A stretch of 33,481 nt of DNA from a virus. Positions 10,495 through 33,358 of the stretch are shown one piece after another; the stretch's first letter is position 1; every line of letters starts with the position of its first letter. The stretch spans positions 1-33,481 of IMG/VR virus record IMGVR_UViG_3300043466_002788; one strand, written 5' to 3'. Below the pieces are notes generated by a model. That model did not search any database, was not told where the DNA came from, and worked only from the letters and a program-made list of their open reading frames with translations. Position numbers and translations under genes: made by a program.

Positions 10495-10497
10495 ACT

Positions 10498-10506
10498 AAT
10501 AAATAC
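10498..10506 (-). promoter_or_regulatory. TATTTAT motif immediately before the HNH start
   Basis: On the minus strand GTATTTATT is followed by AGT and the ATG at 10494. It decides between the two in-frame starts. Confidence 0.35.
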
Positions 10507-10529
10507 ACGGGAAAACATTAAAAGATAAA

Positions 10530-16951: not shown

Positions 16952-17698
16952 TTAGTTTTTCATTTTAACTTGAATTATTAGATAAAGTTTTTTAAATCTT
17001 TTAATAGAGCTACGAATTTCTTTTGTACTCAAATTAGTCATTTCTCTTAACGAAAGTAAAATCACATTTTTATTAAATTTATTATTATCCGCACCTGAGA
17101 ATATTTCATCGTAATTATCAAATAAATCGATTAATGCATAACCTAATTTTTGTTCATTTTCATTCAGATTTTCTTTTTCAATAAAGATTTTTAATTCTTT
17201 TAAATATTCATTTATAATTGTTTGAGTGTCAATAATATCGTCATCAATTCTATAAATCATATCAGGTCTTTCTTCCAAACTGGTTGAAATATCTTCATAT
17301 GAAATTTTTCGATTAGTGTCTTTTTGGTCTTTAATTATCTGACCCATCAGATAATTTTTACAAATAGTCCCAAAATACGAATATGCCTTCTTTTCTTTAG
17401 AAGGTTTAAATTTATCGACTTTAGTCATTAAAAATGAATGAGTGTCTGTATGGATTTCTCTAAAATCCATATCTTTACGATAAAGTTTGTATCGTCTAAT
17501 AATTGAAGATATCATTTTATCTAAAGGACCTCTCAAAAATTCATTATATATTTTGTTTTTTTCTTCAAAAGATTCGGCAATTAAAAATCTTTTAACTGCC
17601 AATTCTTCTTTAACATCAAAATAATTTAATTGAGTTGTTTTTCTTCCTCTTTTTTTTGATAAAACATCTTCTGTTGACGCAGATAGAGTTTCTTGCAT
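16952..17698 (-). CDS. 55: Sigma-70-family late transcription factor, gp55-like
   Basis: The 248-residue protein has a basic N-terminus (KKRGRKTTQ) and a helical region at 30-75. The segment AYSYFGTICKNYL at 105-117 corresponds to sigma region 2, the part that contacts the -10 element and core polymerase. A C-terminal MTNLSTKEIRSSIKRFKKLYL looks like a region-4-type helix-turn-helix. In T4, gp55 replaces the host sigma to transcribe late genes. The length is close to T4 gp55 (185) plus an N-terminal extension. It sits beside structural genes preceded by TATTTAT, the natural candidate target. It is the last gene of the long minus block before that motif reappears. Confidence 0.75.
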   Translation of the reverse strand: MQETLSASTEDVLSKKRGRKTTQLNYFDVKEELAVKRFLIAESFEEKNKIYNEFLRGPLDKMISSIIRRYKLYRKDMDFREIHTDTHSFLMTKVDKFKPSKEKKAYSYFGTICKNYLMGQIIKDQKDTNRKISYEDISTSLEERPDMIYRIDDDIIDTQTIINEYLKELKIFIEKENLNENEQKLGYALIDLFDNYDEIFSGADNNKFNKNVILLSLREMTNLSTKEIRSSIKRFKKLYLIIQVKMKN

Positions 17699-18505
17699 TT
17701 AGACATTTTCTGATTCATATTTTATGGTTCTATCTTCAATGAAAAAATATTCCCTTTTTGCCGTTTGTATCCAAAATTTAACTTCATCCTCAGTCATAAC
17801 TGATTCGCCATGTTTATAATTCCAAAAAATTGAACCTTCCCTCATATTAGTGTGTTTATAACCTAATTTAGGTATAGTCATAATAGTTGTTGAATTATAA
17901 GTTAATCTTAATAAAAATTCATAAATGAAAGTTAATTTAATTGACGATTTAAATCCTCCAAAATCTTCGATAACATCTTTTCTAATAACTGAACCTGCGG
18001 TTTGAAAATTTTGATAATCTTGTAATGTATCATTTGTTAAAACACCCATTTCTTGAGTAAAATTTGCTGCAAATGTTGCCTCATTCGTAAATCCCGCAAA
18101 AACACCTTTTTCATCGGTTTCTACCACAACAGGTAAAAACATTTGTACTTCCGGATATGACTCAATATATTTTGCAACATTTTTGAACCAAATTGATGAG
18201 TATTCATCGTCAAATTCAAATAAAGAAATCCATCTACCTTTGGCTTTTTTAATTCCAAAATTTACTTGGTCTGAATAATTAGGTTCTTTATCCCACAAAA
18301 ATTTGTTAACTTCTAATTTTCCAAAATCATAAGAATCTAAAAATGAAACTAACGATTCTTCATTAGTATGAACAATAACTAATTCCTCAACATCAATTTG
18401 TTGGTTATGTATTGACTCTATCGCTTTTTTAAAATAATCTTCAAAATCTTTTGCTTTTGAGGACTTAATTGGTAATATTATTGAAACTGATAATTTATTT
18501 TCCAT
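17699..18505 (-). CDS. GT2-type glycosyltransferase
   Basis: The 268-residue protein starts with the GT-A beginning SVSIILPIKS and the helix FKKAIESIHNQQIDVEELVIVHTN. A metal-binding FEFDDEY (near 95-101) takes the place of DxD. GSVIRKDVIEDFGGF (170-185) is a typical acceptor-side motif. The sugar donor and acceptor cannot be read. The stop precedes the sigma-factor gene directly (TAA then ATG), so they are cotranscribed. Confidence 0.82.
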   Translation of the reverse strand: MENKLSVSIILPIKSSKAKDFEDYFKKAIESIHNQQIDVEELVIVHTNEESLVSFLDSYDFGKLEVNKFLWDKEPNYSDQVNFGIKKAKGRWISLFEFDDEYSSIWFKNVAKYIESYPEVQMFLPVVVETDEKGVFAGFTNEATFAANFTQEMGVLTNDTLQDYQNFQTAGSVIRKDVIEDFGGFKSSIKLTFIYEFLLRLTYNSTTIMTIPKLGYKHTNMREGSIFWNYKHGESVMTEDEVKFWIQTAKREYFFIEDRTIKYESENV

Positions 18506-18506
18506 A

Positions 18507-19559
18507 TTATTCTTGTGTTTTAGTAATTTGTTGTTCGAACGCCTCTGCTCTAGTGTTTAAGTATCCTTCAAATAAAGAAACTACCGACGATTCAAATTTT
18601 TGTTTATCTGAGTATCTTTCAATCGTTTTTTTCATTTCATCATAAACTTCAGGTTTGATATTATCTTCTAACCAATTTTGAATAAAATCCGCAATTACAT
18701 CAGAGATTAAAGTTTGGTCTGTAATCCAAATTCCATTTTCTTCATTAATCCAATCCGGAATTAAATTAGGAACCTTACCAATAACTGGTACATTTGATTT
18801 CATTGATTCTAGTGGGAATGTCCCAAAACCACTTTCATTATCAATCCACACACTTAAAAAACATTCTTTAAGTGAATTTGCAAATTCTTTTTCAGATAAA
18901 CCTCTTAAATCTCTAAAAGTGAACCATCTATATTGTGGGAATTTTAAATAAAAAGTTTTAATGATATTAACCGCATCACTTTGTTCTTTGGTGTGAACAC
19001 CAATAATTGGCATTGGAGGTAATTTTTTTGGTTCAAATGAATCTGTAATGTATGGTTCAATAACATCAAAAGAACAATTTCTCATAATTTTTTCAATATA
19101 TTCTTTTTGTTTATTATTTGTGGTTATACATTTCATAAATCCAAATTGAGACCATGTTTGACCAGGTTGTAAAGTTTCTAACATATATGCGTATGATTGT
19201 GTTAAAACAATTTTGGCACAAGGTAATTGTTTAATTTGTTCCATTACATATCCAAAAATTTCCGGAATAACTATAAAATCCTCAGGAGATATTTCTAAAT
19301 TTTGACCTTCGATTGATTTATGGGGTAATTCCATATATTCCTCTTCTAACCACGCAACAACACCCGCATAGTCATTTTTTTCATGTAGGATTATAGGATT
19401 GTATCCGTTGTCCTTTAATGCTTTAGCCATTTGATAAATGTATCTAACAGACGCCTTAGCATTACCTTTAGTGTCTTGAACTAAAAAGTATATTCTGGCA
19501 TTTTTGTCTCTTAGTGTTTGAATGGACTGTTTTACTTTTTCTTCTAATGAATTTTCCAT
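18507..19559 (-). CDS. GT-B (GT4-like) glycosyltransferase
   Basis: The 350-residue protein has a Rossmann-like N-terminal half (RIYFLVQDTKGNAKASVRYIY). In the C-terminal half ESGFGTFPLE (242-251) gives the E-x7-E-like nucleotide-sugar site of GT4 enzymes, followed by SNVPVIGKVPNL. Residues 300-350 form a closing helical tail. It is one base from the following gene. It probably transfers a sugar in the same pathway as its neighbours. Confidence 0.8.
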   Translation of the reverse strand: MENSLEEKVKQSIQTLRDKNARIYFLVQDTKGNAKASVRYIYQMAKALKDNGYNPIILHEKNDYAGVVAWLEEEYMELPHKSIEGQNLEISPEDFIVIPEIFGYVMEQIKQLPCAKIVLTQSYAYMLETLQPGQTWSQFGFMKCITTNNKQKEYIEKIMRNCSFDVIEPYITDSFEPKKLPPMPIIGVHTKEQSDAVNIIKTFYLKFPQYRWFTFRDLRGLSEKEFANSLKECFLSVWIDNESGFGTFPLESMKSNVPVIGKVPNLIPDWINEENGIWITDQTLISDVIADFIQNWLEDNIKPEVYDEMKKTIERYSDKQKFESSVVSLFEGYLNTRAEAFEQQITKTQE

Positions 19560-19563
19560 ATTA

Positions 19564-19854
19564 TTAATAATGATTTATAAGTTTTTTATTTAATAAGCTA
19601 TTAAATGCAATTCTAAATGGTATACTGGTATTGGATGATTGTTTCATTCCTAAAGTTTCATCTATTTCTTCATGTTCAGTTAACACAGTATCTAATAACA
19701 TTTTAACCAAATCAAATTTGATTATGTTTATTCTCATTTCAGGAGTTTCTCCTGACATTGGTTCAGTTTCATTTGGCATCCCAATGTATTGTTCGACTAA
19801 ATCCAAGTCAACATAGTAGTTTTCACCTAATACTTTAATCATAAATTTCTTCAA
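19564..19854 (-). CDS. Small conserved-looking hypothetical protein
   Basis: This 96-residue acidic helical protein contains RINIIKFDLVKMLLDTVLTE and IPFRIAFNSLLNKKLI. No family is recognised. It overlaps the upstream HAD-like gene by 20 bases and precedes the GT-B gene by four bases, so it belongs to the same transcript. Confidence 0.7.
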   Translation of the reverse strand: MKKFMIKVLGENYYVDLDLVEQYIGMPNETEPMSGETPEMRINIIKFDLVKMLLDTVLTEHEEIDETLGMKQSSNTSIPFRIAFNSLLNKKLINHY

Positions 19855-20431
19855 TTTTATTTTTAAGCTCTTTAATATTTGATATTGAGTGCTCTGTTTT
19901 AATATTTGAGTTATAAATTGTGTCGTATTTTATCACAATTTTATTCTCGGGTTGTTCTAATAATAGTTTAGGATTTGCCGTAAGTAAAATGTCTATTGAG
20001 TCCCACATCAAATTAATTGTTGATTCACTATAAAATTTTACGGTTTCAGTTAAACATCCAAATTTTGAAATAAAAAATAATGAGGCCGGTTTCGATTTAC
20101 CCATTTCATCGGAAACAATTAATATGTCATGCTTATCTCTCATATCCAAATAAAAATCATTAAAGTCCATCATACTTGAAACTTCAACTGAACCGGCATG
20201 TCCGAATATTTCCATGGTATGTTCCTTATAAAGGAAATTATATAACTCATCCTCGTCTTTAAATTTTAAATGAGACATTATATCTAATGAAGTTAAATCG
20301 GAAACAACTTCATATTCAAATTCGTCTTCCGTATCTCTAAATGGATTATCAATATACCACTTTTCATATTCTTGTTGTATTTTTCTAAGAGTGTCTCTTA
20401 AAACACCATTTAATTCAATTCCAATTCTCAT
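19835..20431 (-). CDS. HAD-like fold protein with degenerate catalytic motif
   Basis: The 198-residue protein has the HAD order. Motif I comes first (RIGIELNGVLRDT, residues 2-14), then a helical cap (20-75). The core follows with DKHDILIVSDEMGKSKPASL, where motif II/III Ser and Lys are recognisable, and MWDSIDILLTANPKLL at the end. In active enzymes motif I is DxDGV, but here both Asp are replaced (Glu6 and Asn8). Phosphatase activity is therefore unlikely or altered. Small phage HAD proteins are often 5'(3')-deoxynucleotidases, so a ligand-binding relative is possible. It overlaps phoH by four bases (ATGA). Confidence 0.65.
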   Translation of the reverse strand: MRIGIELNGVLRDTLRKIQQEYEKWYIDNPFRDTEDEFEYEVVSDLTSLDIMSHLKFKDEDELYNFLYKEHTMEIFGHAGSVEVSSMMDFNDFYLDMRDKHDILIVSDEMGKSKPASLFFISKFGCLTETVKFYSESTINLMWDSIDILLTANPKLLLEQPENKIVIKYDTIYNSNIKTEHSISNIKELKNKIEEIYD

Positions 20432-21177
20432 TCTTCGTATTTTTTTAATATTTTACTAATCAATTTATTTCTAACAATATCTTTATCATCGGTAAATTCG
20501 AATACTGAAATATCACTATCATTTCTAAATCTTTCAATTGCATCGTATAAACCACTATGGGTTTTATTTTTAAATTTGTCAGACTGTTCAACATCACCTG
20601 AGATGAAAAATTTACTATTAAACCCGATACGAGTTAATAATAATTTCATTTGACTCGGGGTTGCGTTTTGTCCCTCTTCAAAAATTAAAATTGAATTATC
20701 AATATTCATACCTCTCATAAATGCTAATGCAAATACTTCAATAACATCTAAATTTTTTAATTCTTCTCGAGTCTCTTTTCCAATAATTTTATTCATCAAA
20801 TAATAAGAAGGGAAGATATAAGGGTCTAATTTTTCTTCAACATTTCCGGGTAATGAACCTAATTTCTCTTCAGCTTCAACTGCGGGTCTTACAATAATAA
20901 TTTTTTCATAAGGAGTTTCAGGGTCTGATATTAAATCAATTGCCGCTTTCATGGTAATATAACTTTTACCAACACCTGCAGGACCTGAACAAATCGTAAT
21001 TTCACTATCAATTAAAGTATCGTAATATTTTTTTTGATTTACAGTTAAAAACTTTTGTTTTGTTTTCTTTTTTATGATAGAACAAATAATCTCTTTAATT
21101 GTTTTATTTTTAACATTTTCACTCGTAGGAGTAGGAGTTATTTTTGGTTTACCCCCTCTTGTTGGTTTTTGATTCAT
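20428..21177 (-). CDS. phoH: PhoH-like ATPase
   Basis: The 249-residue protein is a P-loop ATPase with Walker A GPAGVGKS (65-72), the family segment RPAVEAEEKLGSLPGNVEEKL (98-118), Walker B region ILIFEEGQNATPSQMKLLLT (163-182) and GDVEQSD (194-200). The family is very common in T4-like and marine phages. Its cellular role is unresolved and may involve RNA or phosphate-related metabolism. In most members the Walker B region reads xLDEAQN; here it is FEEGQN, a conservative change. A Pro/Thr/Lys-rich N-terminus of about 30 residues is unstructured. It is translationally coupled to the HAD-like gene. Confidence 0.92.
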   Translation of the reverse strand: MNQKPTRGGKPKITPTPTSENVKNKTIKEIICSIIKKKTKQKFLTVNQKKYYDTLIDSEITICSGPAGVGKSYITMKAAIDLISDPETPYEKIIIVRPAVEAEEKLGSLPGNVEEKLDPYIFPSYYLMNKIIGKETREELKNLDVIEVFALAFMRGMNIDNSILIFEEGQNATPSQMKLLLTRIGFNSKFFISGDVEQSDKFKNKTHSGLYDAIERFRNDSDISVFEFTDDKDIVRNKLISKILKKYEE

Positions 21178-21194
21178 TTTAATTATTTAACTGT

Positions 21195-21953
21195 TTAGTT
21201 GTAAATTTCAATAAACTTTTTTAATTCGGTTTCAATATTATCACACTTTAAAACTTCATATGTGATTATTTTATCGTATCCTATTTTTTTTAGTTCATTT
21301 GAAAATTTTACATGTGTTTCAGAATTTATAATAGGTGCTAATTTCACCTCCGAAACATGTATATGGTTGATATAGTTATAATATTTTTTCAATTCACTAA
21401 TTGAGTTATAACCCTCTAATTCCAAATTATGTGTATCAATCATAGTTTTAATATTGACTAACTTATTATTTTCAATAAATTCAACAATTTCGCTTAAGTT
21501 ATAAAAATAATTTCCTCCGTAAATTTTGGCATTAGGTTCAATAACCAATGTGATTTCAGTGTTATTTAATAGTTCATCAAATTTTTTAAATATTTTGGAT
21601 AGTGATTCATCAATGATTCCTGTTCTCATGGTAGGTGACCCAAAAACCATTACTTTTACATCTAATATTTGACATATTTCAATGAGTCTTTTGAAGTGAT
21701 TGAAGACAACTTTAGAATCTCTTATCCCGTCACATTTTATATTATAAAAAATGGATTGAATCGATTCTATTTTTATATGGTATGTGTCTAATTTTTTCTT
21801 AAATTCATATAAGACATTATCGGATAATTTATCCCAATTATCAATTTTAGTTAAAACACCCTCAACATTATTAATACCTAATTCATTAAGTAAATAAAAT
21901 ACTTTTTGATTATCTTGAACATCCCATGCTAAATTACTTACCGATAACTTCAT
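21195..21953 (-). CDS. Xylose-isomerase-like TIM barrel (sugar isomerase/epimerase type)
   Basis: The 252-residue protein follows the AP endonuclease 2/xylose isomerase barrel: KLSVSNLAWD start, then IKIESIQSIFYN, VKVMVFGSPTMR, TLVIEPNA, KTMIDTHNLEL, INHIHVSEV and TYEVLK. The metal-ligand positions Glu, Asp-x-His, His and Glu are present. Proteins of this type isomerise or epimerise small sugars. Given the flanking epimerase and glycosyltransferases, it probably helps make the donor sugar. It overlaps the epimerase-like gene by 20 bases. It is 17 bases upstream of phoH, the first visible break in the cassette. Confidence 0.8.
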   Translation of the reverse strand: MKLSVSNLAWDVQDNQKVFYLLNELGINNVEGVLTKIDNWDKLSDNVLYEFKKKLDTYHIKIESIQSIFYNIKCDGIRDSKVVFNHFKRLIEICQILDVKVMVFGSPTMRTGIIDESLSKIFKKFDELLNNTEITLVIEPNAKIYGGNYFYNLSEIVEFIENNKLVNIKTMIDTHNLELEGYNSISELKKYYNYINHIHVSEVKLAPIINSETHVKFSNELKKIGYDKIITYEVLKCDNIETELKKFIEIYN

Positions 21954-22704
21954 CTATAAACTTTTTTATTTCTGTTAAAACTTCGTCTTTAGTTTTAATA
22001 TAACCACTATTATGGTATTTTGTAGTATAGTCGTAAGATATTTTAATATTGTTGTGTTTAACTAAATTTTTGGCATTTTCAAAGAAAGATATAATATCTA
22101 TCGTTTCAACTGGTTCGGTGAATAAATTAAATGTTGTTTCGTGAGGAAATTGGGTAGAATATTTGGTGATGTCATTGTGTAGGTCATCTAAATTATACCA
22201 TTGAAACATTGAGTTTGAATTTATTTGGTCGACATTATTATTGTTAATTAAGTCAAATAAAACATTTTTTTTGATGTGTTTGTTGAATAATGCAGGAAGT
22301 CTAAAAATCTTTAAGTCATCTGATTTCAAATATTCTTTAACCATTAATTCAAACAAATATCGGTTATTACCATAACTTAAACCCCCAAAATTTGGTTTAT
22401 ATTCCTCATTAACCTTAAGAGGTGAATCATTGTACACATCAATTGTTGACAGCAACACTATTTTTGAATATGTATGTTTTTTTAAAATATTAATAATATT
22501 GTAAATGTTATCCAAATCACTTGAGAGATTTTTGTTTACCATCCATTTAGTTGCTGGTAGACAAGACAAATATAGTTCATGACCATCCTCAGTAACCAAT
22601 TCATTAAATTTATTGATATTTTTTGAGTTAAATTTTAAATCAAATTCTATTGTTTCGGTTAATGTTGTTCCAATTAATCCGGTGTGTCCCACAAGTATTC
22701 TCAT
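21934..22704 (-). CDS. Extended SDR, NAD-dependent epimerase/dehydratase-like
   Basis: The 256-residue protein has the Rossmann motif GHTGLIG (6-12), the catalytic-region LLSTIDVYND with Ser/Thr, and YGNNR in place of the usual YxxxK. The Lys is thus Arg, which could weaken or change activity. Later text (FRLPALFN, FQWYNLDDL) fits extended SDR nucleotide-sugar enzymes. It is shorter than typical epimerases (about 320). Probably it modifies a nucleotide sugar used by the neighbouring transferases. Start overlaps the upstream gene by ATGA. Confidence 0.78.
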   Translation of the reverse strand: MRILVGHTGLIGTTLTETIEFDLKFNSKNINKFNELVTEDGHELYLSCLPATKWMVNKNLSSDLDNIYNIINILKKHTYSKIVLLSTIDVYNDSPLKVNEEYKPNFGGLSYGNNRYLFELMVKEYLKSDDLKIFRLPALFNKHIKKNVLFDLINNNNVDQINSNSMFQWYNLDDLHNDITKYSTQFPHETTFNLFTEPVETIDIISFFENAKNLVKHNNIKISYDYTTKYHNSGYIKTKDEVLTEIKKFIDEVIGK

Positions 22705-23735
22705 CGTTTAAATAAAACTTTTATTGATTTAGATTCGACTAACATATAGTCTTTTAAATGTATTTGTAATAATCTTTCGGGGTATGAACAATAAAAATAA
22801 TACAATGACTCTACGTGCCCAACATGGTCTTTTAAAACATAATTACCATCCGTGAATTTTGCAGTTGTATTGTTAACCTCAAACGATTTAAGATTATCGG
22901 ATAATAAGGATTCGTTTAATTTATCATAATGTTCATACAACGAACAATAACTTTTCATTGCATCAAAATTACCATACGCAAATATATCACACACTACATT
23001 TGTATGTGGGAATATATGAACATTTTTTAATCCATGTTTATAGTACATATTATCACAAGCATAACAAGATGTCCCATTATCTAAGTGAGAATGCCCACAA
23101 TCACTATTTGGTACAAAAATAATTTTATTATTCTGAATATCTTCAACTTGAGTTTTTAATAAATTAAATGATTCGATATTATTATCAAATCTAAATTTAA
23201 ATATTACATCATAATTCACATCTGATTCTTGAGAATGTTCCTCAAGAAGTTTAAATGCTGAGTTGACTGAGTATAGTTGGGATTTAATGAATTTTTCTGG
23301 AGACGAAAAATTAAAGTATCCTGTGACGTTTTCCAATGTATCGATATATTCTTTATTATTTTCAATAACATATTTCACAACATTTGGGATTTGTTGTATT
23401 TCACTAACTACCTCATCGTAAGAGGTTTTACTATCAAGATTCATTTCTTCCCCTTTAATTCCAATTGTATCCCATGTATGAATAAACACATCATAATCGT
23501 ATTTACTTAAAAAATCGATAAAATTTGTTAAAATATTTTTTCTTCGAATATGACCGGTTAATAAAATGGCAATTTTTACATTGGTTGCATTTTTTAAATT
23601 TAAATATTCTTCACATTTAGATAATTCTTTTTCAAGTATGTGAAATTCTTTTTTTCCATGAATAACCCATTCTGATTCTGTAAAATTTCTATCCAAATAT
23701 TTTTCAAATAAAATTTTTAATTTTTCTTTTGTCAT
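22701..23735 (-). CDS. Glycosyltransferase-like protein with N-terminal linker-type segment
   Basis: The 344-residue protein has an N-terminal 45-residue segment (KILFEKYLDRNFTESEW, then LEKELSKCEEYLN) that resembles short DUF4214-like repeat units seen fused to phage and bacterial glycan enzymes. The main domain begins KIAILLTGHIRRKNIL, continues DYDVFIHTWDT and has VIFKFRFDNNI. This is the layout of LPS-type transferases where DVFIHTWD is characteristic. Cys residues cluster around 225-245 (DCGHSHLDNGTSCYACDNM). The acceptor is unknown. It is followed by the SDR gene with ATGA overlap. Confidence 0.65.
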   Translation of the reverse strand: MTKEKLKILFEKYLDRNFTESEWVIHGKKEFHILEKELSKCEEYLNLKNATNVKIAILLTGHIRRKNILTNFIDFLSKYDYDVFIHTWDTIGIKGEEMNLDSKTSYDEVVSEIQQIPNVVKYVIENNKEYIDTLENVTGYFNFSSPEKFIKSQLYSVNSAFKLLEEHSQESDVNYDVIFKFRFDNNIESFNLLKTQVEDIQNNKIIFVPNSDCGHSHLDNGTSCYACDNMYYKHGLKNVHIFPHTNVVCDIFAYGNFDAMKSYCSLYEHYDKLNESLLSDNLKSFEVNNTTAKFTDGNYVLKDHVGHVESLYYFYCSYPERLLQIHLKDYMLVESKSIKVLFKR

Positions 23736-23747
23736 TGTATAAATTTT

Positions 23748-24365
23748 TTAATTATTTGATTTAACGCCTAAAGACTCAAAACTTGGTTTTTGAAAAATAT
23801 TTTTTGATTCCCATTTATTGTAAAAATAATCATAATCTTCCTTAAATGTTGTTTGATATACGTGTGCAAGATTATTATCAGAATCCTCCAAATTTCTTAA
23901 TATTGATGCGTCATCATGATTAATTTCGGATGGTTTATCAATATTATGTACTATTGGTTGACAATACCCTGATTCGTAAATTCTCTGTCTAATATCAAGT
24001 TCCATATAACTATTTTTTAAATTTTCATCCCACCCTCCAATTGATTTTATTTTTTCAGTGTCAAATAAAACTAATAAATCCGTTATGTCACAAGCAGTAC
24101 TAGATGCGGAATTTTCGTGTAATAAATATTGGTCGATTATTTTATCAAAAATAGTTGGGTCCAATATTTCGGCATCATAGTGCATAAAAAACCATATAGG
24201 GGTTTCTACCGAGTGTAAAATTTTATTTAAACATTTTGTAAATGGGACCGGTGTTTCGTTATTGTTAACTCTAACTTCAAATCTATCAGGTATTGACTTG
24301 ATGGCTCTCTTAAGTAAATCAGGATATTTTCCGACGTAATTAAAATAAATTGGTATTTTCTTCAT
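23748..24365 (-). CDS. GT-A fold glycosyltransferase, short
   Basis: The 205-residue protein contains WFFMHYDAEILDP (about 59-71) as DxD-type site, then SIGGWDENLKNSYMELDIRQRIYESGY, a pattern typical of the C-terminal half of GT2 enzymes. It is compact and lacks membrane segments. It overlaps the upstream FAD oxidoreductase gene by 26 bases. Confidence 0.75.
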   Translation of the reverse strand: MKKIPIYFNYVGKYPDLLKRAIKSIPDRFEVRVNNNETPVPFTKCLNKILHSVETPIWFFMHYDAEILDPTIFDKIIDQYLLHENSASSTACDITDLLVLFDTEKIKSIGGWDENLKNSYMELDIRQRIYESGYCQPIVHNIDKPSEINHDDASILRNLEDSDNNLAHVYQTTFKEDYDYFYNKWESKNIFQKPSFESLGVKSNN

Positions 24366-25344
24366 TATTTATTATTTCTTTTATTGTATTCTCTATTATG
24401 TAAATTCCTTGTATTTTTCCGGTAAAGCAAGTGATTATATTATTTTCTTTTTTTATTACCGGATACCGATTTCCTGACTCATCGTCAACTTTACTTTTTA
24501 TTGATAGGAAATATGTATCATATTTAAAATACTTATTAAAATCCTTCATAAATTTTAGTACTCTTTTTTCGAACTCATTCTTTTTATTCAATATGAATGT
24601 TTCATCAATATTTTTACTAAATTCTTCTATTGAGTCTATTGTTGTGAAACGATTTAAAGGTGTTAATTTAACATCAGTTAATGTAAATTTATTGTCTTTA
24701 TATGGATATATTGAAAACAATTCACCATCAACAAATGTCACCGAATCAAATTCGGTAGGGTTAATTTTTTCATAAATCAAAGTTAATGTTAATTCATAAA
24801 AAAAATCTTCATTAATTAATCCCATAAAGTTATTAGTTGAATCAATAACTAAATCATAATTTTTAGATAATTTTTTTAATTTTACTTTATCAATATTTTC
24901 ATAGACTATTAAATCACCTAATTCCTTTTCAAAAAAAGAACGAACCTTTTCAAAATTTATATGTTTTTCATTTGTTAAGATACAACCTTCAGTGTTTATA
25001 AAATTATGGTTAGTAAGTTCAATTGGATAATCGTTAAAGATTTTCAAATATGATTCTAAATCAAGTAATGACATTTTTTTGGGTACACAATAAAAATTTT
25101 TTGAAATATCTGTAACACAAAATCCATAATCATCTATAAATTTGTAAAAAGTTGATTTACAAAGCTCTCTTGTTTTATGATTTCTCGCATAATGATATCC
25201 ATAGTGTAATCTATTTTGATTCTTATATGAAGTCCCATTAAAAATTTTTTTATCTTTTTCAAAAATTGTAATATCATGGTTTTTTTTTAATTTAGCCGCC
25301 AAATGACAACCGACCCAACCACCACCTATTATTGCTATTTTCAT
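24340..25344 (-). CDS. FAD-dependent oxidoreductase (DAO-like)
   Basis: The 334-residue protein begins KIAIIGGGWVGCHLAAKL, a dinucleotide-binding Rossmann motif, with an acidic end at FEKDKK. RLHYGYHYARNHKTREL then resembles conserved text in flavin oxidoreductases close to UDP-galactopyranose mutase and DAO-type enzymes. The C-terminal TGKIQGIYIIEN fits FAD closure. In this setting it may oxidise or isomerise a sugar, but the substrate is not known. Its A+T content looks even higher than that of the tail genes, and it is rich in Lys/Asn/Ile codons. Confidence 0.75.
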   Translation of the reverse strand: MKIAIIGGGWVGCHLAAKLKKNHDITIFEKDKKIFNGTSYKNQNRLHYGYHYARNHKTRELCKSTFYKFIDDYGFCVTDISKNFYCVPKKMSLLDLESYLKIFNDYPIELTNHNFINTEGCILTNEKHINFEKVRSFFEKELGDLIVYENIDKVKLKKLSKNYDLVIDSTNNFMGLINEDFFYELTLTLIYEKINPTEFDSVTFVDGELFSIYPYKDNKFTLTDVKLTPLNRFTTIDSIEEFSKNIDETFILNKKNEFEKRVLKFMKDFNKYFKYDTYFLSIKSKVDDESGNRYPVIKKENNIITCFTGKIQGIYIIENTIKEIINNEENTNLF

Positions 25345-25345
25345 T

Positions 25346-26011
25346 CTATATATTAAGTATCATAATACCCCCATTGGTTTGACCCCAATTGGATTTATTC
25401 TTGTACAAATCTAATGATTCGTAATATTCAGTTCTTCTTATTGTATTTGTTTTGTACCAATTTTCATAATCAACAACACTCCAATTATTATTGTTATTGT
25501 AAATTAATGGTGATGGACTTGATTTCCATAAAATATAATCTTCATTATGTACTCCCCAATTTTTCCAATTTCTTAGTGAATTTTCACTATAATCGGTGTT
25601 TTTAATTTGGAGTAATTTATCTTTAACAGTTAATAAATAAATATAACTGTACAGACCAATAGACATTGCGGGTGTCGATTTTAAAGAAATTTTTTCCGGT
25701 TTATTATCGGGAATATTATAAAGAAGTTCTTTAAACCTTGGTCCAACTTTACAAGTGTCATGAATTAAAAACCAATATTCTGATGATAATTCTTTTTCAC
25801 AAATTTCTATTAAAGGACTATATTCATATGAATTATGTTCTAAATAATAATGTGTAATACCATCTATAATTTCTATTTCAAACTTATCAAATCCTGAATT
25901 GAAAACAAATATATCTTTTACCTCAATACCCGCCTCTATTAAAGATGGTATAATGATTGGTAATGATAATTTATAAAAATTTTTATTAGTTGAAATTGCT
26001 ATTTTAATCAT
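25346..26011 (-). CDS. Probable GT-A fold transferase
   Basis: The 221-residue protein starts KIAISTNKNFYKLSLPIIIP. Its SSEYWFLIHDTCKVGPRFKE segment (about 77-96) looks like the metal-binding part of a GT-A enzyme, followed by SIGLYSYIYL. The match is weaker than for the neighbours. It lies one base before the FAD oxidoreductase gene and shares its ATGA overlap with the upstream GT2 gene. Confidence 0.6.
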   Translation of the reverse strand: MIKIAISTNKNFYKLSLPIIIPSLIEAGIEVKDIFVFNSGFDKFEIEIIDGITHYYLEHNSYEYSPLIEICEKELSSEYWFLIHDTCKVGPRFKELLYNIPDNKPEKISLKSTPAMSIGLYSYIYLLTVKDKLLQIKNTDYSENSLRNWKNWGVHNEDYILWKSSPSPLIYNNNNNWSVVDYENWYKTNTIRRTEYYESLDLYKNKSNWGQTNGGIMILNI

Positions 26012-26715
26012 AGAAAAATACTTGAAGGTCTAAGTTTCGAAAATTCTTCGTTTATTCTTAAGTTATGAGGAAACCCCATTCTAACATAAGTGTGAATATC
26101 TTCAACACCAATGGTTTTCATAAATTTTTTACTTTGACCTTCAAAATGAATCATTGGGGAACTTGTTATATATGCAACATCATAACCTTGTTTATATAAA
26201 TTGTGGAATATGAAATCGTCACCACAATATGTTTTTAATTGTTCAGGAATTGGAGTAAATAAGTCCCTTCTAATACTATAATCCCATCCTTGCATATATC
26301 TATCTCGTTCCACTATTGTATATTCAGTTGGTGTTTTTTTAACAGTATAACTTTCATGATTTGTCGAATGAACCACAATACCTACTTGAGTTTCTTTATT
26401 GAAAACTTCCATAATGTCGTAGATAAAATTATCGGTAATAATGACATCATTATTCAAAAAACATAAAATTTCTTCAGTGTAAGTTTGGTGAAACCAATTC
26501 CACACATGATTTAAAGGTCGGTTTTCTTCATTTCTTACAATCTGAATTCTTGAATCAGTTAGTGTTTCTAAAAACTCTTGAGTTCCTTCTTCTGATGAGT
26601 TTTGGTCAACAATTGTTAGTTTAAAATTCTCATAGGTCTGAGATAATAAATTGTTTATACAATTTTTGGTATATTCTTTGTTGTTTAAATTAACAACTAA
26701 TATTCTTATATTCAT
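26008..26715 (-). CDS. GT2 family glycosyltransferase
   Basis: The 235-residue protein shows classic GT2 text: IRILVVNLNNKEYTKNCINN, FKLTIVDQNSSEEGTQEFLE and ILCFLNNDVIITDNFIYDI (DxD-like NND). YMQGWDYSIRRDLF then occupies the acceptor region. No transmembrane helices are seen, so it is cytosolic. Four-base overlaps on both sides place it in the middle of the glycan operon. Confidence 0.88.
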   Translation of the reverse strand: MNIRILVVNLNNKEYTKNCINNLLSQTYENFKLTIVDQNSSEEGTQEFLETLTDSRIQIVRNEENRPLNHVWNWFHQTYTEEILCFLNNDVIITDNFIYDIMEVFNKETQVGIVVHSTNHESYTVKKTPTEYTIVERDRYMQGWDYSIRRDLFTPIPEQLKTYCGDDFIFHNLYKQGYDVAYITSSPMIHFEGQSKKFMKTIGVEDIHTYVRMGFPHNLRINEEFSKLRPSSIFL

Positions 26716-28343
26716 GATAAAATTTTAATATATTGTTCTTTTATTTGTTTGGTTACATATGAGGAATGATATTTTTCTAAATCAGACGGAACATCAAACT
26801 TTTCTTTCGATAAAATAAATCCTCCGGAATCAACTTTATAAATCCAACTAGGTTTATTACATAACCACCCTTCAATTGTTGTTCGACCTAATTGAATTCC
26901 AGCGGTTTCACTACATTTTTGAACGTAAGGTTCTATATTCCATGTTGATTGAAAATGTTTTACATGTGGGTTTTCCAATATTGCCGGTAAATAATTTGAT
27001 TTGTCCTCACCTACTAACCACAATTCTTTATTATTCTCTCTTGTGTAATCGATTAAGTCCATAATCGTTTCTCTTCTCAAATAATCTATTGTACCAACAA
27101 ATAATAAATAATTTTCCTCTTTAATTGTTTCAGGTTTAAATTTTTGATTATCAATTGGATTATAAATAATTTCAACCATTTCCTCAGGAATTTCAAACTT
27201 ATCGACAATATGTTCTTTAATTTCCGGTCTAATGGCAATGTATTTTTTGATTGACTCATGTTTAATAGGGTCCTCAAGTTCAATCACTTCAGAATGTATG
27301 GAATAAATTTTATCAATTTCCGGATAAAACTGAATCATTCTTTCAGCAACAGGTTTGTGTTGCATATGTATCAAATCAAAATTAACTTCAGAAATACGAT
27401 ACATAACACCGGGTTGTGATGGTTGAAATCCTTTTTCTGTGTTATGACCCCATTTCCCATCACCAAGTTTAAAACCGGGAGCATTTTCAAATGAAATACA
27501 TTTAATACCTTGTTTTTTTGCCATATCTGTAAGAGGTCCTCCAATTTGAGACATAACAGTTACATCACAATTTTGTTTGATTAGGTTTTTAGCTAATTCG
27601 TAAACATAAAGTTCTGACCCGGTAAATGTTTTAAAAAATAGACAAGATAATAAAACTTTTATTTTTCTTTTTTCATCAAATGGTATTTTAATGGGTAGAT
27701 TTGAAATGTATTTTTTTGAAAATAATTTTCTATTCTCTTCCCACTGTTCATTAGTTTGCCCTATTGATTTATGGGTTAGTCTAATATTAGTTATTACACC
27801 AACTTTAACACCCTCTAAATGGTTTTCAAAACAAAAAGGAATATCATAAAAATGAAACCCTTTAAATTCTTCGTTGAAATTTTTCTTAATTCTTTTTTTA
27901 CTTAACGCGATGAATAAACCATCAACAATGACAGTTTCATGTATGTCATTACCAAAACTTTCAGAATATTTTGATTCCCATTTTTTTCCTTCGTGTTCGT
28001 GATTTACAATTCCTACCATTTTTTTTCGGTTTTCCCACCACATTCCACTCTCAGGTATTTGAGTAGTACCAGCCATTCCAATAATTCCAAAATCGGATTT
28101 CTCGAAATGTTTTAATAATTTAGGATACCAAGCATTTGTATCAAAATAAATGTCGTCATGGCATAAGACAACAATATCTGTTTTGGACTCTAATAATATT
28201 TCGTTATATACTTCGGCAAGGGATTTTTCACCATTATTAACTTTTTCAATAACTTCAATTTTTTTAAACCCTGAACTTTTTTTTAAGTATTCTATAAATT
28301 CAGGTTTATGTTCTCTAGTTGAATATCCTACTGTTATCATCAC
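26712..28343 (-). CDS. Two-domain glycosyltransferase: GT-A (StrF-like) plus GT-B
   Basis: The 543-residue protein joins two catalytic folds. Residues 1-230 match the StrF-like GT-A family: ITVGYSTREHKPEF, SLAEVYNEILLES, VLCHDDIYFD and GIIGMAGT. Residues 230-543 form a GT-B half: LLSCLFFKTFTGSELYVYEL, YSIHSEVIELEDP, LLFVGTIDYLRRE and GRTTIEGWLCNKPSWIYKV. Two linked transferases could add successive sugars to one acceptor. The gene follows dut with no spacer and is the first gene of the dense glycan cassette. Confidence 0.82.
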   Translation of the reverse strand: MMITVGYSTREHKPEFIEYLKKSSGFKKIEVIEKVNNGEKSLAEVYNEILLESKTDIVVLCHDDIYFDTNAWYPKLLKHFEKSDFGIIGMAGTTQIPESGMWWENRKKMVGIVNHEHEGKKWESKYSESFGNDIHETVIVDGLFIALSKKRIKKNFNEEFKGFHFYDIPFCFENHLEGVKVGVITNIRLTHKSIGQTNEQWEENRKLFSKKYISNLPIKIPFDEKRKIKVLLSCLFFKTFTGSELYVYELAKNLIKQNCDVTVMSQIGGPLTDMAKKQGIKCISFENAPGFKLGDGKWGHNTEKGFQPSQPGVMYRISEVNFDLIHMQHKPVAERMIQFYPEIDKIYSIHSEVIELEDPIKHESIKKYIAIRPEIKEHIVDKFEIPEEMVEIIYNPIDNQKFKPETIKEENYLLFVGTIDYLRRETIMDLIDYTRENNKELWLVGEDKSNYLPAILENPHVKHFQSTWNIEPYVQKCSETAGIQLGRTTIEGWLCNKPSWIYKVDSGGFILSKEKFDVPSDLEKYHSSYVTKQIKEQYIKILS

Positions 28344-28967
28344 TTATACTATTCCAGTTGACCCAAATCCATTATCACCTCTTTCACCATCGGTTACTTT
28401 ATCCACTTCAATTAAATTAACATATTTTCCGTTAACTACGGGACACAAGACGGCTTGAGCAATTTTCATACCTTTTGGTATGGTTACGATATGATTATTG
28501 GTGTTGAATATGATTACTTTAATTTCCCCATTATACCCTGAATCCACAGTTCCGGGAGTATTTAATACTGTTAAACCTTGATTAATAGCTAAACCGCTTT
28601 TTGGTCTTACTTGTATTTCAAATTCATCAGGGATTGATAATTTAATTCCGGTTGAAACTAATGCTCTACCGAATGGTCCTATCTCTAATTCCTCTGTTGA
28701 ATATAAATCAAATCCTGAATCACTTGGATAAGCATATTCAGGAAATTTTGCGTCATTATTAAGAAGTTCAACTTTTACTGTTTTACTTTTCATTGCGGTC
28801 ATCATCTCTTCATTCATTTCTTCATATGTCATACCTAAAAGATTTTCTAATTCTTTTTGATATTCATCGTCAAGTTCAACTCCCGCTTGTTCTTGAAGTC
28901 CTTCAAGTTGTTCTTGAATTTGTTTCAACATTTCAGGGTCAAACCCTAATCCATCTAAATTTTGCAT
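28344..28967 (-). CDS. dut: dUTPase with N-terminal extension
   Basis: The 207-residue protein contains the five trimeric dUTPase motifs. These are SDSGFDLYS (82-90), RPKSGLA (121-127), GTVDSGYNGEIKV (139-151), AQAVLCPV (170-177) and RGDNGFGSTG (196-205). The catalytic Asp is present in motif 3. The enzyme converts dUTP to dUMP and limits uracil in DNA. Typical family members are about 150 residues; here about 60 extra N-terminal residues form a charged, Gln/Glu/Leu-rich helical region of unknown role. It overlaps the exonuclease gene by one base. Confidence 0.93.
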   Translation of the reverse strand: MQNLDGLGFDPEMLKQIQEQLEGLQEQAGVELDDEYQKELENLLGMTYEEMNEEMMTAMKSKTVKVELLNNDAKFPEYAYPSDSGFDLYSTEELEIGPFGRALVSTGIKLSIPDEFEIQVRPKSGLAINQGLTVLNTPGTVDSGYNGEIKVIIFNTNNHIVTIPKGMKIAQAVLCPVVNGKYVNLIEVDKVTDGERGDNGFGSTGIV

Positions 28968-29668
28968 TATTTTAATTCTGTTAATTTTTTTATTACTTCA
29001 ACAAGTACTTCGACATCTTTTTCACAATATTCAACAATACCTTTAATGTCTTTTTTATCCCAAAACGCTTCATGAACTTTATTTCCCGTAACTTCCATAT
29101 TTTTGGATGATTCAATACCTAAACAAACACACATAAGTTCCAAGGATGCAATTGAACCGTATCCACCATACTGCCAAACTTCTTTTGTATCAAGAGCTTT
29201 AATTTCCCATGGTTTAGTGTCATGTCCCGGTAAAATTTTTGGAGGTAGAACACCGTTCATAATCATTCTTTTTGCCAATACTGGAATATCAAATCCTTTA
29301 ACATTATGACCACAAAGGAAGAACCCTAATTCTCCAACTCTATAAAGTAATTTTTGAACTTCCAAAAGTAATTCTTTTTCATCCGGATTGCTAAATGATT
29401 GCATTTTGATTTCACCTTTTGGGTCAATAAATGCAACGCTTACACATGCAATTCTTAAAAATTCGGGAACCAATGCCGCTCGGTTAACAAACATTTTACT
29501 ATAACCCTCATCTCCATCTTCAGGAAATCTTTTTTGAAACCAATCAAAATATTTCTCGAACTGAAATGCTAATTCAGGTCTGTTTTGTTGTAATGATTCC
29601 CAAGTTGGTTCAATACCAACGGTTTCAATGTCTAAAAATAAAATTTTAGTTAATGGTATGTTTATCAT
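28967..29668 (-). CDS. DEDDy 3'-5' exonuclease (PolB-exonuclease-like)
   Basis: The 233-residue protein has the RNase H-like exonuclease motifs: LFLDIET with Asp13 and Glu15, GHNVKGFDIP with Asp127, and YCEKDVE with Tyr214 and Asp218. This DEDDy pattern matches predicted exonucleases related to DNA polymerase B proofreading domains. A Trp/Phe-rich insert of about 40 residues follows the first motif. It probably works in phage DNA repair or nucleotide salvage. Its start overlaps a previously unlisted 49-residue gene by ATGA. Confidence 0.88.
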   Translation of the reverse strand: MINIPLTKILFLDIETVGIEPTWESLQQNRPELAFQFEKYFDWFQKRFPEDGDEGYSKMFVNRAALVPEFLRIACVSVAFIDPKGEIKMQSFSNPDEKELLLEVQKLLYRVGELGFFLCGHNVKGFDIPVLAKRMIMNGVLPPKILPGHDTKPWEIKALDTKEVWQYGGYGSIASLELMCVCLGIESSKNMEVTGNKVHEAFWDKKDIKGIVEYCEKDVEVLVEVIKKLTELK

Positions 29669-29814
29669 AATTTAATATTTTCTTTATCGTAACTAACTCT
29701 ATTTGATTTTTTGAATGTTTGGAATGTTTCTTCACTAATGCAATGAACATCTCCATTTTGTGTCATAACAATATATTTGTCATCAGTTTTATTTATTAAA
29801 ACAATATCCCACAT
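29665..29814 (-). CDS. Small 49-residue protein, translationally coupled
   Basis: A minus-strand frame starts at the ATG at 29814, begins MWDIVLINKTDDKYIVMTQN and runs 49 codons to TGA (29667-29665). It overlaps the exonuclease start as ATGA. It fills the only large gap in this tightly packed operon, and its codons look like those of its neighbours. No family is recognised; the beta-hairpin-like pattern (KYIVMTQNGDVHCI) suggests a small folded domain. Confidence 0.7.
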   Translation of the reverse strand: MWDIVLINKTDDKYIVMTQNGDVHCISEETFQTFKKSNRVSYDKENIKL

Positions 29815-29818
29815 AATT

Positions 29819-31036
29819 TTATTTGATTAATGATTTATAAAAATCTCTACGAGTTTTTGTTACAATATTTAAATCATATTTGTCTTTAACCGTCTCGTAT
29901 AATCTTTCTCCCATATCTTTAACTAAATTTGGATTTTTTAATAATTTCTCAATATTTTTTGCCCAATCAGAATGATTTCTTGATTCATCCACTAACATTG
30001 CATTCCCATCAACAAATCCACCATTTTTTAAACAATGTTTTAAATCCAATGTGTATGGTCCAATGTTTGATGCGATTAAAGCCTTTTTGTAAAATCCTGC
30101 CTCAATAACTTTTAATTGAGATTTCATTCGATTAAACATGTGATTTTTAATTGGTGCCAAAGATACATCAAATTTTGAATAATTTTTAGCATAAGAATTA
30201 ACAGGTCTTGTCCAAACTCTTAAATAAGATTCGTTCATCTCATTTGGAAATGGCTCTTGATTATAATTTAATAAATGTTTGGTGTAATCTTCCGAAATTA
30301 TTTTATAATTCTGAGTGAAGATTTTTTCATATTGAGCCCAAACCGTTTCTTCCGGTTTAATATCTCTTTTATTATGTTCACCTGTTTGTGAATTTATTTC
30401 GGTTACAGTTCCACGAGTATCAAAGCCACAAAGAACATATTGTAATTCGTCTTTGTATTTGATTAATTTACCAAATGAATCATTTAATAATTGAAGGTCG
30501 TGTAAATGGGATGACCCACCTAACCATCCAATTCTTAATCTGTCAGATTCTAAAGTAGGTTCTTTGAATTGTGGTTCGTTTGGATTAATACCATTTGGAA
30601 TTACAAAAACATTTTTGTTTATTTTTCGAATTTCATCTGCAAATAAACTTGTTGTTGTCGTAACATATTGAGCAATTTTAAGATTTGCTGTAATTTTTTC
30701 GTTTATTTTATTAAATTTAATTACATCGTGAATCGGATGTTCTTTACCGGGCATCCAATAATCGTCAATATCACATACGGTAATAATACCCATTGTATTT
30801 AACATATTGATTAATTGCTGAGCTCGTTCAAAATCAGGTCCAATACTTCTGTGGAATGCAACTATTTGATATTGTTTCCAAAAATTCATATCATCATATG
30901 ATGGTTCATATACGATATCAACATGGAAATCATCCCCATATAGATTTTGTAAGAAAATGTGAGGGTCAACTGACCTAAATTTCCCAACACCAGTACGGTC
31001 TGATGGGATAACTAAAACATTAATTTTTTCTTTCAT
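29819..31036 (-). CDS. GT4-like glycosyltransferase
   Basis: The 405-residue protein begins INVLVIPSDRTGVGKFRSV, the usual first strand and loop of GT-B enzymes. Further features are CDIDDYWMPG (94-103), VFVIPNGINP, RLRIGWLGGSSHLHD and LKVIEAGFYKKALIASNIG, the E-x7-E-like region. Closing NLVKDMGERLYETVK follows. Such CDIDDYW-type GT4 proteins are frequent in large phages. A TAACTTTG -7-like box lies upstream (31080-31073) without a clear TTG partner. Confidence 0.85.
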   Translation of the reverse strand: MKEKINVLVIPSDRTGVGKFRSVDPHIFLQNLYGDDFHVDIVYEPSYDDMNFWKQYQIVAFHRSIGPDFERAQQLINMLNTMGIITVCDIDDYWMPGKEHPIHDVIKFNKINEKITANLKIAQYVTTTTSLFADEIRKINKNVFVIPNGINPNEPQFKEPTLESDRLRIGWLGGSSHLHDLQLLNDSFGKLIKYKDELQYVLCGFDTRGTVTEINSQTGEHNKRDIKPEETVWAQYEKIFTQNYKIISEDYTKHLLNYNQEPFPNEMNESYLRVWTRPVNSYAKNYSKFDVSLAPIKNHMFNRMKSQLKVIEAGFYKKALIASNIGPYTLDLKHCLKNGGFVDGNAMLVDESRNHSDWAKNIEKLLKNPNLVKDMGERLYETVKDKYDLNIVTKTRRDFYKSLIK

Positions 31037-31085
31037 AAAATTTGATTATATATTGTATTGTAGTTTTATCATCAAAGTTAGATTT

Positions 31086-31157
31086 TTAAACTACTTCTAA
31101 AGTATAACCATAATTTTCAATTAATTCAACTTTTTTTTTGTTATAAACCCATAATTC
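31086..31157 (-). pseudogene. Possible remnant of a nuclease-type C-terminus
   Basis: Between two glycosyltransferase genes a minus-strand frame without a start reads ELWVYNKKKVELIENYGYTL and two Val codons before TAA. This resembles the end of Vsr-like or homing endonucleases, where such text is usually followed by IWE. It lies between a stop and the next gene and could be a trace of a lost insertion. The evidence is short. Confidence 0.3.
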
Positions 31158-31173
31158 TCAAGTAAATTTATTA

Positions 31174-31722
31174 TCATAACAAATGAGATGTGTTTGATTG
31201 ATTACCACCTCTATACCAATGTTGAACATATATTCCTTTCATTAAACCTACTTTACCTCCAAATTCTTTAACTTTCATATGAATATCATTATCAACACCT
31301 AGCATATTGTTTGTTTTAAACCCTCCGACTTTCTCCCAAACATCTTTTTTAATTAATAATAAAACACCACTAATATATGGGTTATCAGTTAGGTCTAAAA
31401 CTGAGGTTCCATATTTATTCCACATATTTTCACCGAACTCTCTATGATATTTTTGGTCATTTGTTTCTCGATTAACATCGGGAGCTATTTGAGGTTTGAA
31501 CCCAATTCTATTAGTATAACAAGTGAATAAGGAATATTCCGGGTTATTATCAATGACATCCTCAATTCGTTTACCGAAAAATGGTGTGGTATGAACGGCG
31601 TCTCCATCTAAAAAACAAACCCAATCTTCGGAACCAACTAAAGACATTGTTTTATTATACGAGACTCCAATATTTTTATCACTATTCCAAGGTATGACAT
31701 GGAATATATCATATTTTTTCAT
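31174..31722 (-). CDS. GT-A glycosyltransferase, short form
   Basis: The 182-residue product starts at ATG 31722 (MKKYDIFHVIPWNSDK). An ATG at 31755 is in frame but lies inside the upstream terminator stem, so it cannot be the usual start. The protein has WVCFLDGDAVH with a DGD motif (about 35-45). YISGVLLLIKKDVWEKVGGF and DNDIHMKVKEFGGKVGLMKG follow, which are GT2 acceptor and C-terminal features. The first strand and P-loop-like region of full GT2 enzymes are missing or reduced, so it may be shortened. Confidence 0.78.
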   Translation of the reverse strand: MKKYDIFHVIPWNSDKNIGVSYNKTMSLVGSEDWVCFLDGDAVHTTPFFGKRIEDVIDNNPEYSLFTCYTNRIGFKPQIAPDVNRETNDQKYHREFGENMWNKYGTSVLDLTDNPYISGVLLLIKKDVWEKVGGFKTNNMLGVDNDIHMKVKEFGGKVGLMKGIYVQHWYRGGNQSNTSHLL

Positions 31723-31738
31723 GTTATTTTTTTTTTTA

Positions 31739-31765
31739 ATAAAAAAAACCCTCATTATGAGGGTT
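31739..31765 (-). terminator. Terminator between virion-type genes and the glycan block
   Basis: AACCCTCA (31747-31754) pairs with TGAGGGTT (31758-31765) around TTA. On the minus strand it is followed by T8. It ends the 31769-33481 unit and precedes the glycosyltransferase start. Confidence 0.9.
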
Positions 31766-31768
31766 ATA

Positions 31769-32362
31769 TTAAGATAATTTTTTAATTTTAGTTACTTTAC
31801 CTTCGAATACATGTTTTCCAACTTTAAATGAAAAAGTTTCATTTGATTTTTCAGAACTTTCAGCAATTAATCCATTTTCTTTTAATGCGTTTTTAACTGC
31901 TTCATTAATCATTTTTTGAATTAATTTGTAGTCAATTCCTGCATTTGATGATTGTTTTTTTGTTGTTTCCGTGATTGGAGTATTTTTTGGTTGATTACCC
32001 ATTAATCTTGACGCTCTCTCAATTAAATCATTTGATAATGTTGGTGCCACTTGTTGAGGTTGTGCAATTGGATGTTCCATCATTAATTTTTTTATTTCAT
32101 CAGGAAGTCTTGAATTTTTAATTGCCTCAACAGTTGGAACTCCCACTGGTTTTGTATTTTCAACAGGAAGTGAAGATAAGTAAGGTGTGTGTGAAGACGG
32201 AGAATTTTCTTGTAAAAATTCTTGAGGTATGTTATATTTTGCGTTTGGCATTTCATAATCCTCCATCATATTATTAGAAAAGGATTGTTTACTTGCCTTT
32301 ATATCGTTTGTCATTAGAGCCCTTGCATTTGATTGGGCTAATTTTTGCATTAAATCACTCAT
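31769..32362 (-). CDS. Probable virion or assembly protein, mostly disordered
   Basis: The 197-residue protein has a Met/Asn/Gln-rich N-terminus and a Pro/Ser-rich middle. A C-terminal helix INEAVKNALKEN (152-163) is followed by a short beta segment (FSFKVGKHVFEGKVTKIKKL). The helix has the same spacing as the tag-like motif in the scaffold and cargo proteins. No catalytic motif is present. It is the last gene of its unit before a strong terminator. Confidence 0.68.
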   Translation of the reverse strand: MSDLMQKLAQSNARALMTNDIKASKQSFSNNMMEDYEMPNAKYNIPQEFLQENSPSSHTPYLSSLPVENTKPVGVPTVEAIKNSRLPDEIKKLMMEHPIAQPQQVAPTLSNDLIERASRLMGNQPKNTPITETTKKQSSNAGIDYKLIQKMINEAVKNALKENGLIAESSEKSNETFSFKVGKHVFEGKVTKIKKLS

Positions 32363-32424
32363 AATATTAAAAATTTACTATAATCATAATAAAACTTATT
32401 AGATTGTCACTATTATGTTTTAAA

Positions 32425-33356: not shown

Positions 33357-33358
33357 AA

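Follow-up and report, generated by a model that had tools for sequence, protein, structure and literature searches.

A predicted glycan-assembly locus with a constant glycosyltransferase core and an exchangeable dut-phoH cassette in a T4-like phage

Glycosyltransferases (GTs) are common in large aquatic phages, and their targets are largely unknown. The locus described here raises the question of what a T4-like phage would assemble with about nine of them, and on which molecule. It lies in IMG/VR virus record IMGVR_UViG_3300043466_002788, a fragment of 33,481 bases with a G+C content of about 28% (the window), which comes from a T4-like phage and carries a T4-like prohead protease and major capsid protein (MCP) on its plus strand. 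On the minus strand, GT and sugar-modifying genes are grouped around dut and phoH. The gene content of this region almost certainly represents a phage glycan-assembly locus of constant-plus-variable design. The features discussed are the following, and each GT gene is named by its first coordinate.

17699-18505, minus strand: core GT2 (GT-A) glycosyltransferase (Pfam GT2, E 2.6e-9)
18507-19559, minus strand: core GT-B glycosyltransferase related to AmGGT/Agt glucosyltransferases (family profile versus PDB 8xsg/8xsh, E 8.5e-13)
20428-21177, minus strand: PhoH ATPase, constant border of the cassette (Pfam PhoH, E 4e-60)
21195-21953, minus strand: xylose isomerase-like TIM barrel, a sugar epimerase or isomerase (Pfam AP_endonuc_2, E 9e-19)
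21934-22704, minus strand: short-chain dehydrogenase/reductase (SDR), NDP-sugar epimerase-dehydratase-like (weak galE match; its homologue in locus L088 exceeds the cut-off of Pfam Epimerase)
22701-23735, minus strand: GT-A-like glycosyltransferase of the cassette (PHROG 13607, unknown function; AlphaFold2 pLDDT 61)
23748-24365, minus strand: probable GT-A protein of the cassette (HYDAE and GGWDE...D motifs, by eye)
24340-25344, minus strand: DAO-like FAD oxidoreductase (Pfam DAO, E 6e-10; NQNRLHxGxHY motif in an alignment of 9)
25346-26011, minus strand: GT-A glycosyltransferase of the cassette (AlphaFold2 pLDDT 82; no Pfam match)
26008-26715, minus strand: GT2 glycosyltransferase of the cassette (Pfam GT2, E 4.8e-17)
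26712-28343, minus strand: bifunctional glycosyltransferase (Glyco_tranf_2_5, E 7.6e-31, plus Glyco_transf_4, E 3.8e-9)
28344-28967, minus strand: dUTPase, constant border of the cassette (Pfam dUTPase, E 7e-27)
29819-31036, minus strand: core GT-B glycosyltransferase (PHROG 7162 "glycosyltransferase", E 2e-46)
31174-31755, minus strand: accessory short GT2 glycosyltransferase (PHROG 14179, E 4e-26; Pfam GT2, E 5.5e-5, barely over the cut-off)

Relatives were taken as the best 80 loci of a phoH search and, with the addition of an FAD search, reached 84, of which 57 have distinct backbones; the choice of loci by phoH similarity biases the sample toward the present lineage. The core consists of 18507, 17699, 29819, and the N-terminal GT-A domain of 26712, and it is retained in essentially every relative. 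Indeed, 18507 was found in 57/57 distinct relatives, 17699 in 56/57 (the sole exception is a contig end), 29819 in 16/16 distinct relatives reaching past its place, and 26712 in 29 of the 31 loci with both borders. Each of the 20 long relatives searched has exactly one copy of 17699 (E ≤ 2e-134), and the EFDDE motif of its family is conserved across 57 sequences. The dN/dS values of the core are about 0.04-0.07, with 0.04 for 17699 against the closest relative, L006. The conserved gene order is h99-h210-h197-29819-exo-dut ... phoH-h198-h96-18507-17699-sigma-like-tail/baseplate genes, with the dUTPase at the same place in 31 distinct relatives. Since the conserved part recurs in all 80 phoH-based relatives, as far as the contigs reach, the locus is not a chance arrangement. 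The original prediction, made on the window alone, considered the placement of so many GTs beside phoH and dut unusual; for this lineage, it is instead the norm.

The 26712 gene encodes a GT of which one half is constant and the other variable. The N-terminal GT-A domain (about 1-215) is present in all 32 distinct relatives compared, at 43-93% identity, while the C-terminal GT-B domain is homologous in 8/32 (7 strongly) and undetectable in 24/32, with a GT2-type domain in its place in most of the other relatives. The Pfam tally gives the same picture (Glyco_tranf_2_5 in 28/28, Glyco_transf_4 in 7); here and below, Pfam tallies are family counts, with partial per-gene annotation. Thus, the border of the exchangeable region passes through 26712. 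A few relatives have their homologue of 26712 at the phoH end of the cassette.

The cassette between dut and phoH is replaced wholesale, even among phages with about 84% identical flanking DNA. Against L020, the window aligns at 84% DNA identity up to position 21,096, in phoH, and the alignment resumes only at 27,712, inside 26712; L007 gives the same pattern, with similarity ending at 21,114 inside phoH. The cassettes of relatives hold about 2.8-9.5 kb of differing genes and, over all loci, these fall into 181 clusters at 40% identity. According to the Pfam tally, taken over one representative each, they include GTs (GT2, GT10, GT11, GT17, GT47, and GT92), sugar enzymes (GDP-mannose dehydratase, epimerases, and DegT aminotransferases), and modifying enzymes (FkbM, TylF, and other methyltransferases, and hexapeptide acyltransferases). 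The 26008, 25346, 22701, SDR, TIM, and FAD genes occur in few relatives (22701 in 4/57, 26008 in L006 alone of 57), and 23748 and 31174 in none at the same place. Compared with the window, L006 has two extra exostosin-type genes and is missing 23748; the genes it has in common with the window have dN/dS values of 0.04-0.39, indicating purifying selection. The synteny comparison proposed with the original prediction therefore divides what had been described as a single island: four GT units form a conserved core, and the remainder is an exchangeable cassette.

Other observations concern the cassettes. In L002 (12788-14929), an opposed gene pair, with one weak and one clear exostosin GT47 match, lies between the SDR and TIM genes, and an exostosin-type pair like this one is also present in L006 and L016. 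The TIM gene (21195-21953) has a dS of 0.25 against L006, far under the range of 0.49-1.4 seen for the rest of the genes compared, a hint that it recombined separately.

The SDR, the sugar-isomerase-type barrel, and the FAD oxidoreductase of the original prediction proved to be real (Epimerase-type homologue, AP_endonuc_2, and DAO, respectively), and they behave as a module. Where these genes occur in phage cassettes, they occur together, with the exception of a distant FAD homologue in L021. Scanning genomes with the TIM barrel by itself yielded no bacterial relative; bacterial relatives were found when the FAD alignment was used as query. In Aestuariibacter salexigens (L088), the FAD, SDR, and TIM genes are adjacent, near ABC-transporter, epimerase, and GT genes, and a Dolichospermum contig (L093) also holds all three. 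On a contig of a Sulfurovaceae metagenome-assembled genome (L087), they are fused in a single protein of 830 amino acids, followed directly by a 59% identical homologue of GT 25346. Because of the fusion in L087 and the adjacency in L088, the three enzymes most likely form one pathway, which would lead to an unusual activated sugar. GT 25346 is the probable dedicated transferase of this sugar. The putative metal residues of the TIM barrel (E139, D173, H199, and E233) are invariant in 8 phage homologues and kept in the bacterial ones; similarly, G6/G9/G12, Y111, and R115 of the SDR are invariant in 8 phage and 3 bacterial homologues.

SDR enzymes usually carry a YxxxK motif, of which the Lys is catalytic. 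In the present SDR family (21934-22704 and its homologues in L087, L088, and L093), YxxxR replaces YxxxK, and the Arg is invariant in the aligned phage and bacterial members. On the Sulfurovaceae contig, the stretch with the fused protein and the 25346 homologue (L087:4692-8012) has 29% G+C in a contig of 35% G+C, and this dip suggests recent transfer.

As regards the GTs, all named genes of the island are intact open reading frames on the minus strand, and the count of about nine made in the original prediction stands: 8/9 have HMM or fold support, and 23748 is backed by motifs alone. Membership in the GT-A or GT-B class, from a fold or HMM match together with conserved motifs, was found for the set, with 23748 assigned on its motifs. 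Four GTs are over the Pfam cut-off (17699, 26008, 26712, and 31174), and 18507 and 29819 each fall under it by themselves. For 18507, a search at E 1e-3 gave zero matches among 50,697 isolate phage records; the motif that sets acceptor specificity in AmGGT falls outside the stretch aligned with 18507 and could not be mapped. The AlphaFold model of 22701 is mediocre, and its best PDB matches are GT-A enzymes (no Pfam match), while the model of 25346 is good and matches chondroitin synthase, TarP, and RmlT. Among the PDB matches there was also one weak GT-A fold match, to a GT of the chlorovirus PBCV-1. For 23748, hhalign and PDB searches gave no clear assignment, and the lone homologue found is L123. 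In general, these results support the view that the mix of GT-A, GT-B, and sugar enzymes could build an oligosaccharide.

On which molecule would this oligosaccharide be built? The virion, the phage DNA, and the host surface had all been named as possible targets. Our analysis indicates a virion protein as the best candidate and disfavours DNA and a lipid-linked exported glycan. The reading we prefer, to which we give about an even chance, is that a virion protein receives, in the cytoplasm and with no carrier, a glycan whose core is constant and whose outer sugars vary. The cytoplasmic carrier-free route is favoured because a simple hydropathy scan revealed no clearly membrane-like stretch in the island GTs, and because the initiating phosphoglycosyltransferase (PF02397), the Wzx flippase (PF01943), and STT3 (PF02516) were found in 0/20 long relatives (controls were positive for the first two, and in archaea only for STT3). 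The same three absences disfavour a lipid-linked exported surface glycan. A virion protein is favoured because the GTs look soluble and because AmGGT is the nearest relative of 18507 with a solved structure; the Agt proteins, which are homologous to AmGGT, attach glucose to peptide-linked oligosaccharide chains (PMC12159676). The position of the core GTs, next to the sigma-like and baseplate-region genes in a packed run, also speaks for this reading.

Following this model, the core GTs would begin a short oligosaccharide and lengthen it in the cytoplasm, late in infection, directly on a phage structural protein and with no lipid carrier. The swapped C-terminal domain of 26712 and the cassette GTs would then attach outer sugars specific to each lineage. 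In this way, phages that are alike in other respects would display distinct surface glycans ("serotypes"), which would serve adsorption specificity or protection. A more specific version, in which the soluble GT core builds an invariant stem on the particle without a lipid carrier, and the dut-phoH slot and the swappable half of 26712 change the outer sugars of this "virion serotype" system, including the sugar of an SDR-TIM-FAD pathway not recognised before, is tentative, and we judge it somewhat more prone to be wrong than right.

Several points weigh against a virion protein as target. A GT41 N-glycosyltransferase, a candidate for priming a protein, was found in 0/20 long relatives, and no acceptor protein was identified. 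Furthermore, AmGGT itself does not use glycopeptides (PMC12159676), 18507 is only distantly related to AmGGT/Agt, and the acceptor could be a glycan pre-made by host enzymes. Lastly, all the relatives come from metagenomic records whose completeness is unproven, which makes absences among them weak evidence.

The strongest alternative, which we nonetheless consider rather unlikely, is a remodelling of the host surface: the GTs would add sugars to the host lipopolysaccharide or to lipid-linked Bacteroidota O-glycans, which would serve superinfection exclusion or release. It is consistent with cassette families typical of bacterial surface-polysaccharide loci and with the bacterial homologue of the SDR-TIM-FAD module, which sits in such a locus; moreover, the GTs could use a lipid-linked precursor of the host without a phage flippase or ligase. 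In pelagimyophages and cyanomyophages too, the T4-like structural region is broken by a hypervariable island with many GTs, situated between VrlC and gp14; it contains tail fibres and is interpreted as host O-chain modification (PMC7029224). Unlike that island, the one described here borders dut and phoH, no tail fibre was recognised in the cassette, and the core GTs are near-universal. Similarly, the LFG O-glycosylation locus of Bacteroidota has variable GTs between conserved genes, and its product has a conserved inner core and a variable outer glycan (PMC12871550). However, LFG begins with metG and the wzx flippase, and undecaprenyl phosphate use and periplasmic transfer are proposed for it (PMC12871550), whereas no flippase was found in the phage relatives. 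The other enzymes missing from the 20 long relatives (the initiating transferase and STT3) and the lack of an obvious transmembrane stretch in the island GTs also argue against host-surface remodelling, and four GT units that are near-universal amid late genes suit an obligate particle role more than optional exclusion.

A quite improbable alternative is DNA hypermodification, in which the GTs would build sugars on modified phage bases as a defence against restriction and CRISPR. Some viral GTs are known to hypermodify DNA (Pyle et al. 2024, cited in PMC12619734), and dut, a PolB-type exonuclease, and phoH are neighbours of the GTs here. Furthermore, distant homologues of the 31174-29819 pair keep this order in Stephanstirmvirinae, next to genes for a DnaB helicase and a DNA polymerase (29819 has homologues in 134 phage records, mostly of Escherichia). 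DNA as a target is nevertheless disfavoured because the relatives gave no sign of a nucleotide hydroxymethylase, because, among the PF00303 matches in 7/28 relatives, the two that were read have the PFN motif and are true thymidylate synthases, and because no Tet/JBP oxygenase matched in the relatives, in a search without a positive control and on fragmentary records. The wholesale swapping of methyltransferases, acyltransferases, and nucleotide-sugar enzymes is also unlike base-modification loci, none of which, to our knowledge, shows such exchange. In addition, the BASEL study reported exceptional susceptibility to restriction-modification for the Vequintavirinae and their relatives, a set to which the phAPEC8 group belongs (PMC8594841). 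We consider even less probable that no single pathway exists and that the slot is a recombination-prone landing site, gathering a cargo of host polysaccharide genes that share little function. The extreme diversity of the cassettes and the many genes found in few relatives fit this idea; on the other hand, the content is strongly skewed to glycan chemistry, the genes in common with L006 are under purifying selection, the SDR-TIM-FAD genes move together and form a fusion in one bacterium, and the core is nearly invariant.

The phage itself very probably belongs to the moraphage lineage, a likeness drawn from gene content. Moraphages are jumbo phages of aquatic Bacteroidota (Perez-Hernandez et al. 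2025, PMC12619734), with T4-like capsid genes and an origin in aquatic metagenomes; according to the available portions of that paper, their core includes four putative GT orthogroups, a dUTPase, PhoH, the prohead protease, and a sigma factor. Of these traits, the window has the T4-like MCP, the prohead protease, the dUTPase, PhoH, and the conserved GTs. The same portions of the paper leave the variable islands for future study, and the cassette, its dut-phoH borders, the split 26712, and the SDR-TIM-FAD genes are not described in them.

A glycan core with variable parts has a parallel in the chlorovirus PBCV-1, which uses viral and multidomain GTs, independently of host organelles, and shares a glycan core with all chloroviruses (PMC7826918). 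Among tailed phages, mycobacteriophages use GTs of their own to glycosylate proteins of the capsid and the tail tube (Freeman et al. 2023, as reported in the accessible parts of PMC12363180 and PMC12619734, where no large exchangeable cassette is described). In PBCV-1, a eukaryotic virus, glycan and acceptor are proven, and glycosylation is experimentally proven in mycobacteriophages as well, whereas here glycan and acceptor are predicted; the homology seen with PBCV-1 is the one weak GT-A fold match. For the fixed dut-phoH slot, the half-constant GT, and the SDR-TIM-FAD module, we found no description in the literature on the systems compared.

A near-universal core with an exchangeable cassette predicts which sugars are common and which differ, and names the enzymes involved. 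If the preferred reading is true, virion glycosylation with conserved and variable parts would extend from chloroviruses to T4-like aquatic phages, and it would point to phage surfaces that vary in the manner of antigens. The fusion of SDR, TIM, and FAD in one enzyme offers a concrete handle on an uncharacterised sugar pathway common to phages and bacteria.

Regarding the expression of the locus, the minus-strand genes from 29668 to 16952 overlap or sit at most 17 bases apart, in the order exo, dut, GT and sugar genes, phoH, two small genes, two GTs, the sigma-like gene, and then baseplate-region genes, so that two core GTs directly adjoin the sigma-like and baseplate-region genes within the packed run. 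The sigma-like and baseplate-region genes have no Pfam match and are labelled by eye and position. Because of these short gaps, the packed genes, with the sigma-like gene, are probably a single transcription unit; 29819 and 31174 are separated from the run by gaps of 150 and 137 bases. No minus-strand site of the TATAAATA-type late promoter was found inside or just upstream of the island genes, and a sigma-70 promoter scan gave a signal near the level of shuffled sequence. A terminator-like hairpin (31765-31747, minus strand) lies just upstream of 31174. Two homologues of 31174, L143 and L145, are located about 55-60 kb from the phoH locus on the contigs of L033 and L013.

A megablast search of positions 17500-33481 against the 50,697 phage records gave zero matches. 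The nearest MCPs include those of Flavobacterium phage immuto (about 42% identity over 55%) and Microcystis phage Mel-JY01; in immuto, the nearest isolate by MCP, PhoH lies near the capsid genes, and no GT is annotated in the region viewed. Elsewhere in the window, the proteins of 5246-5959 and 10006-10518 resemble, by eye, products of HNH/homing-endonuclease-type genes, and a 310-amino-acid protein encoded near the capsid genes (7558-8490, plus strand) carries a zinc ribbon close to its C-terminus.

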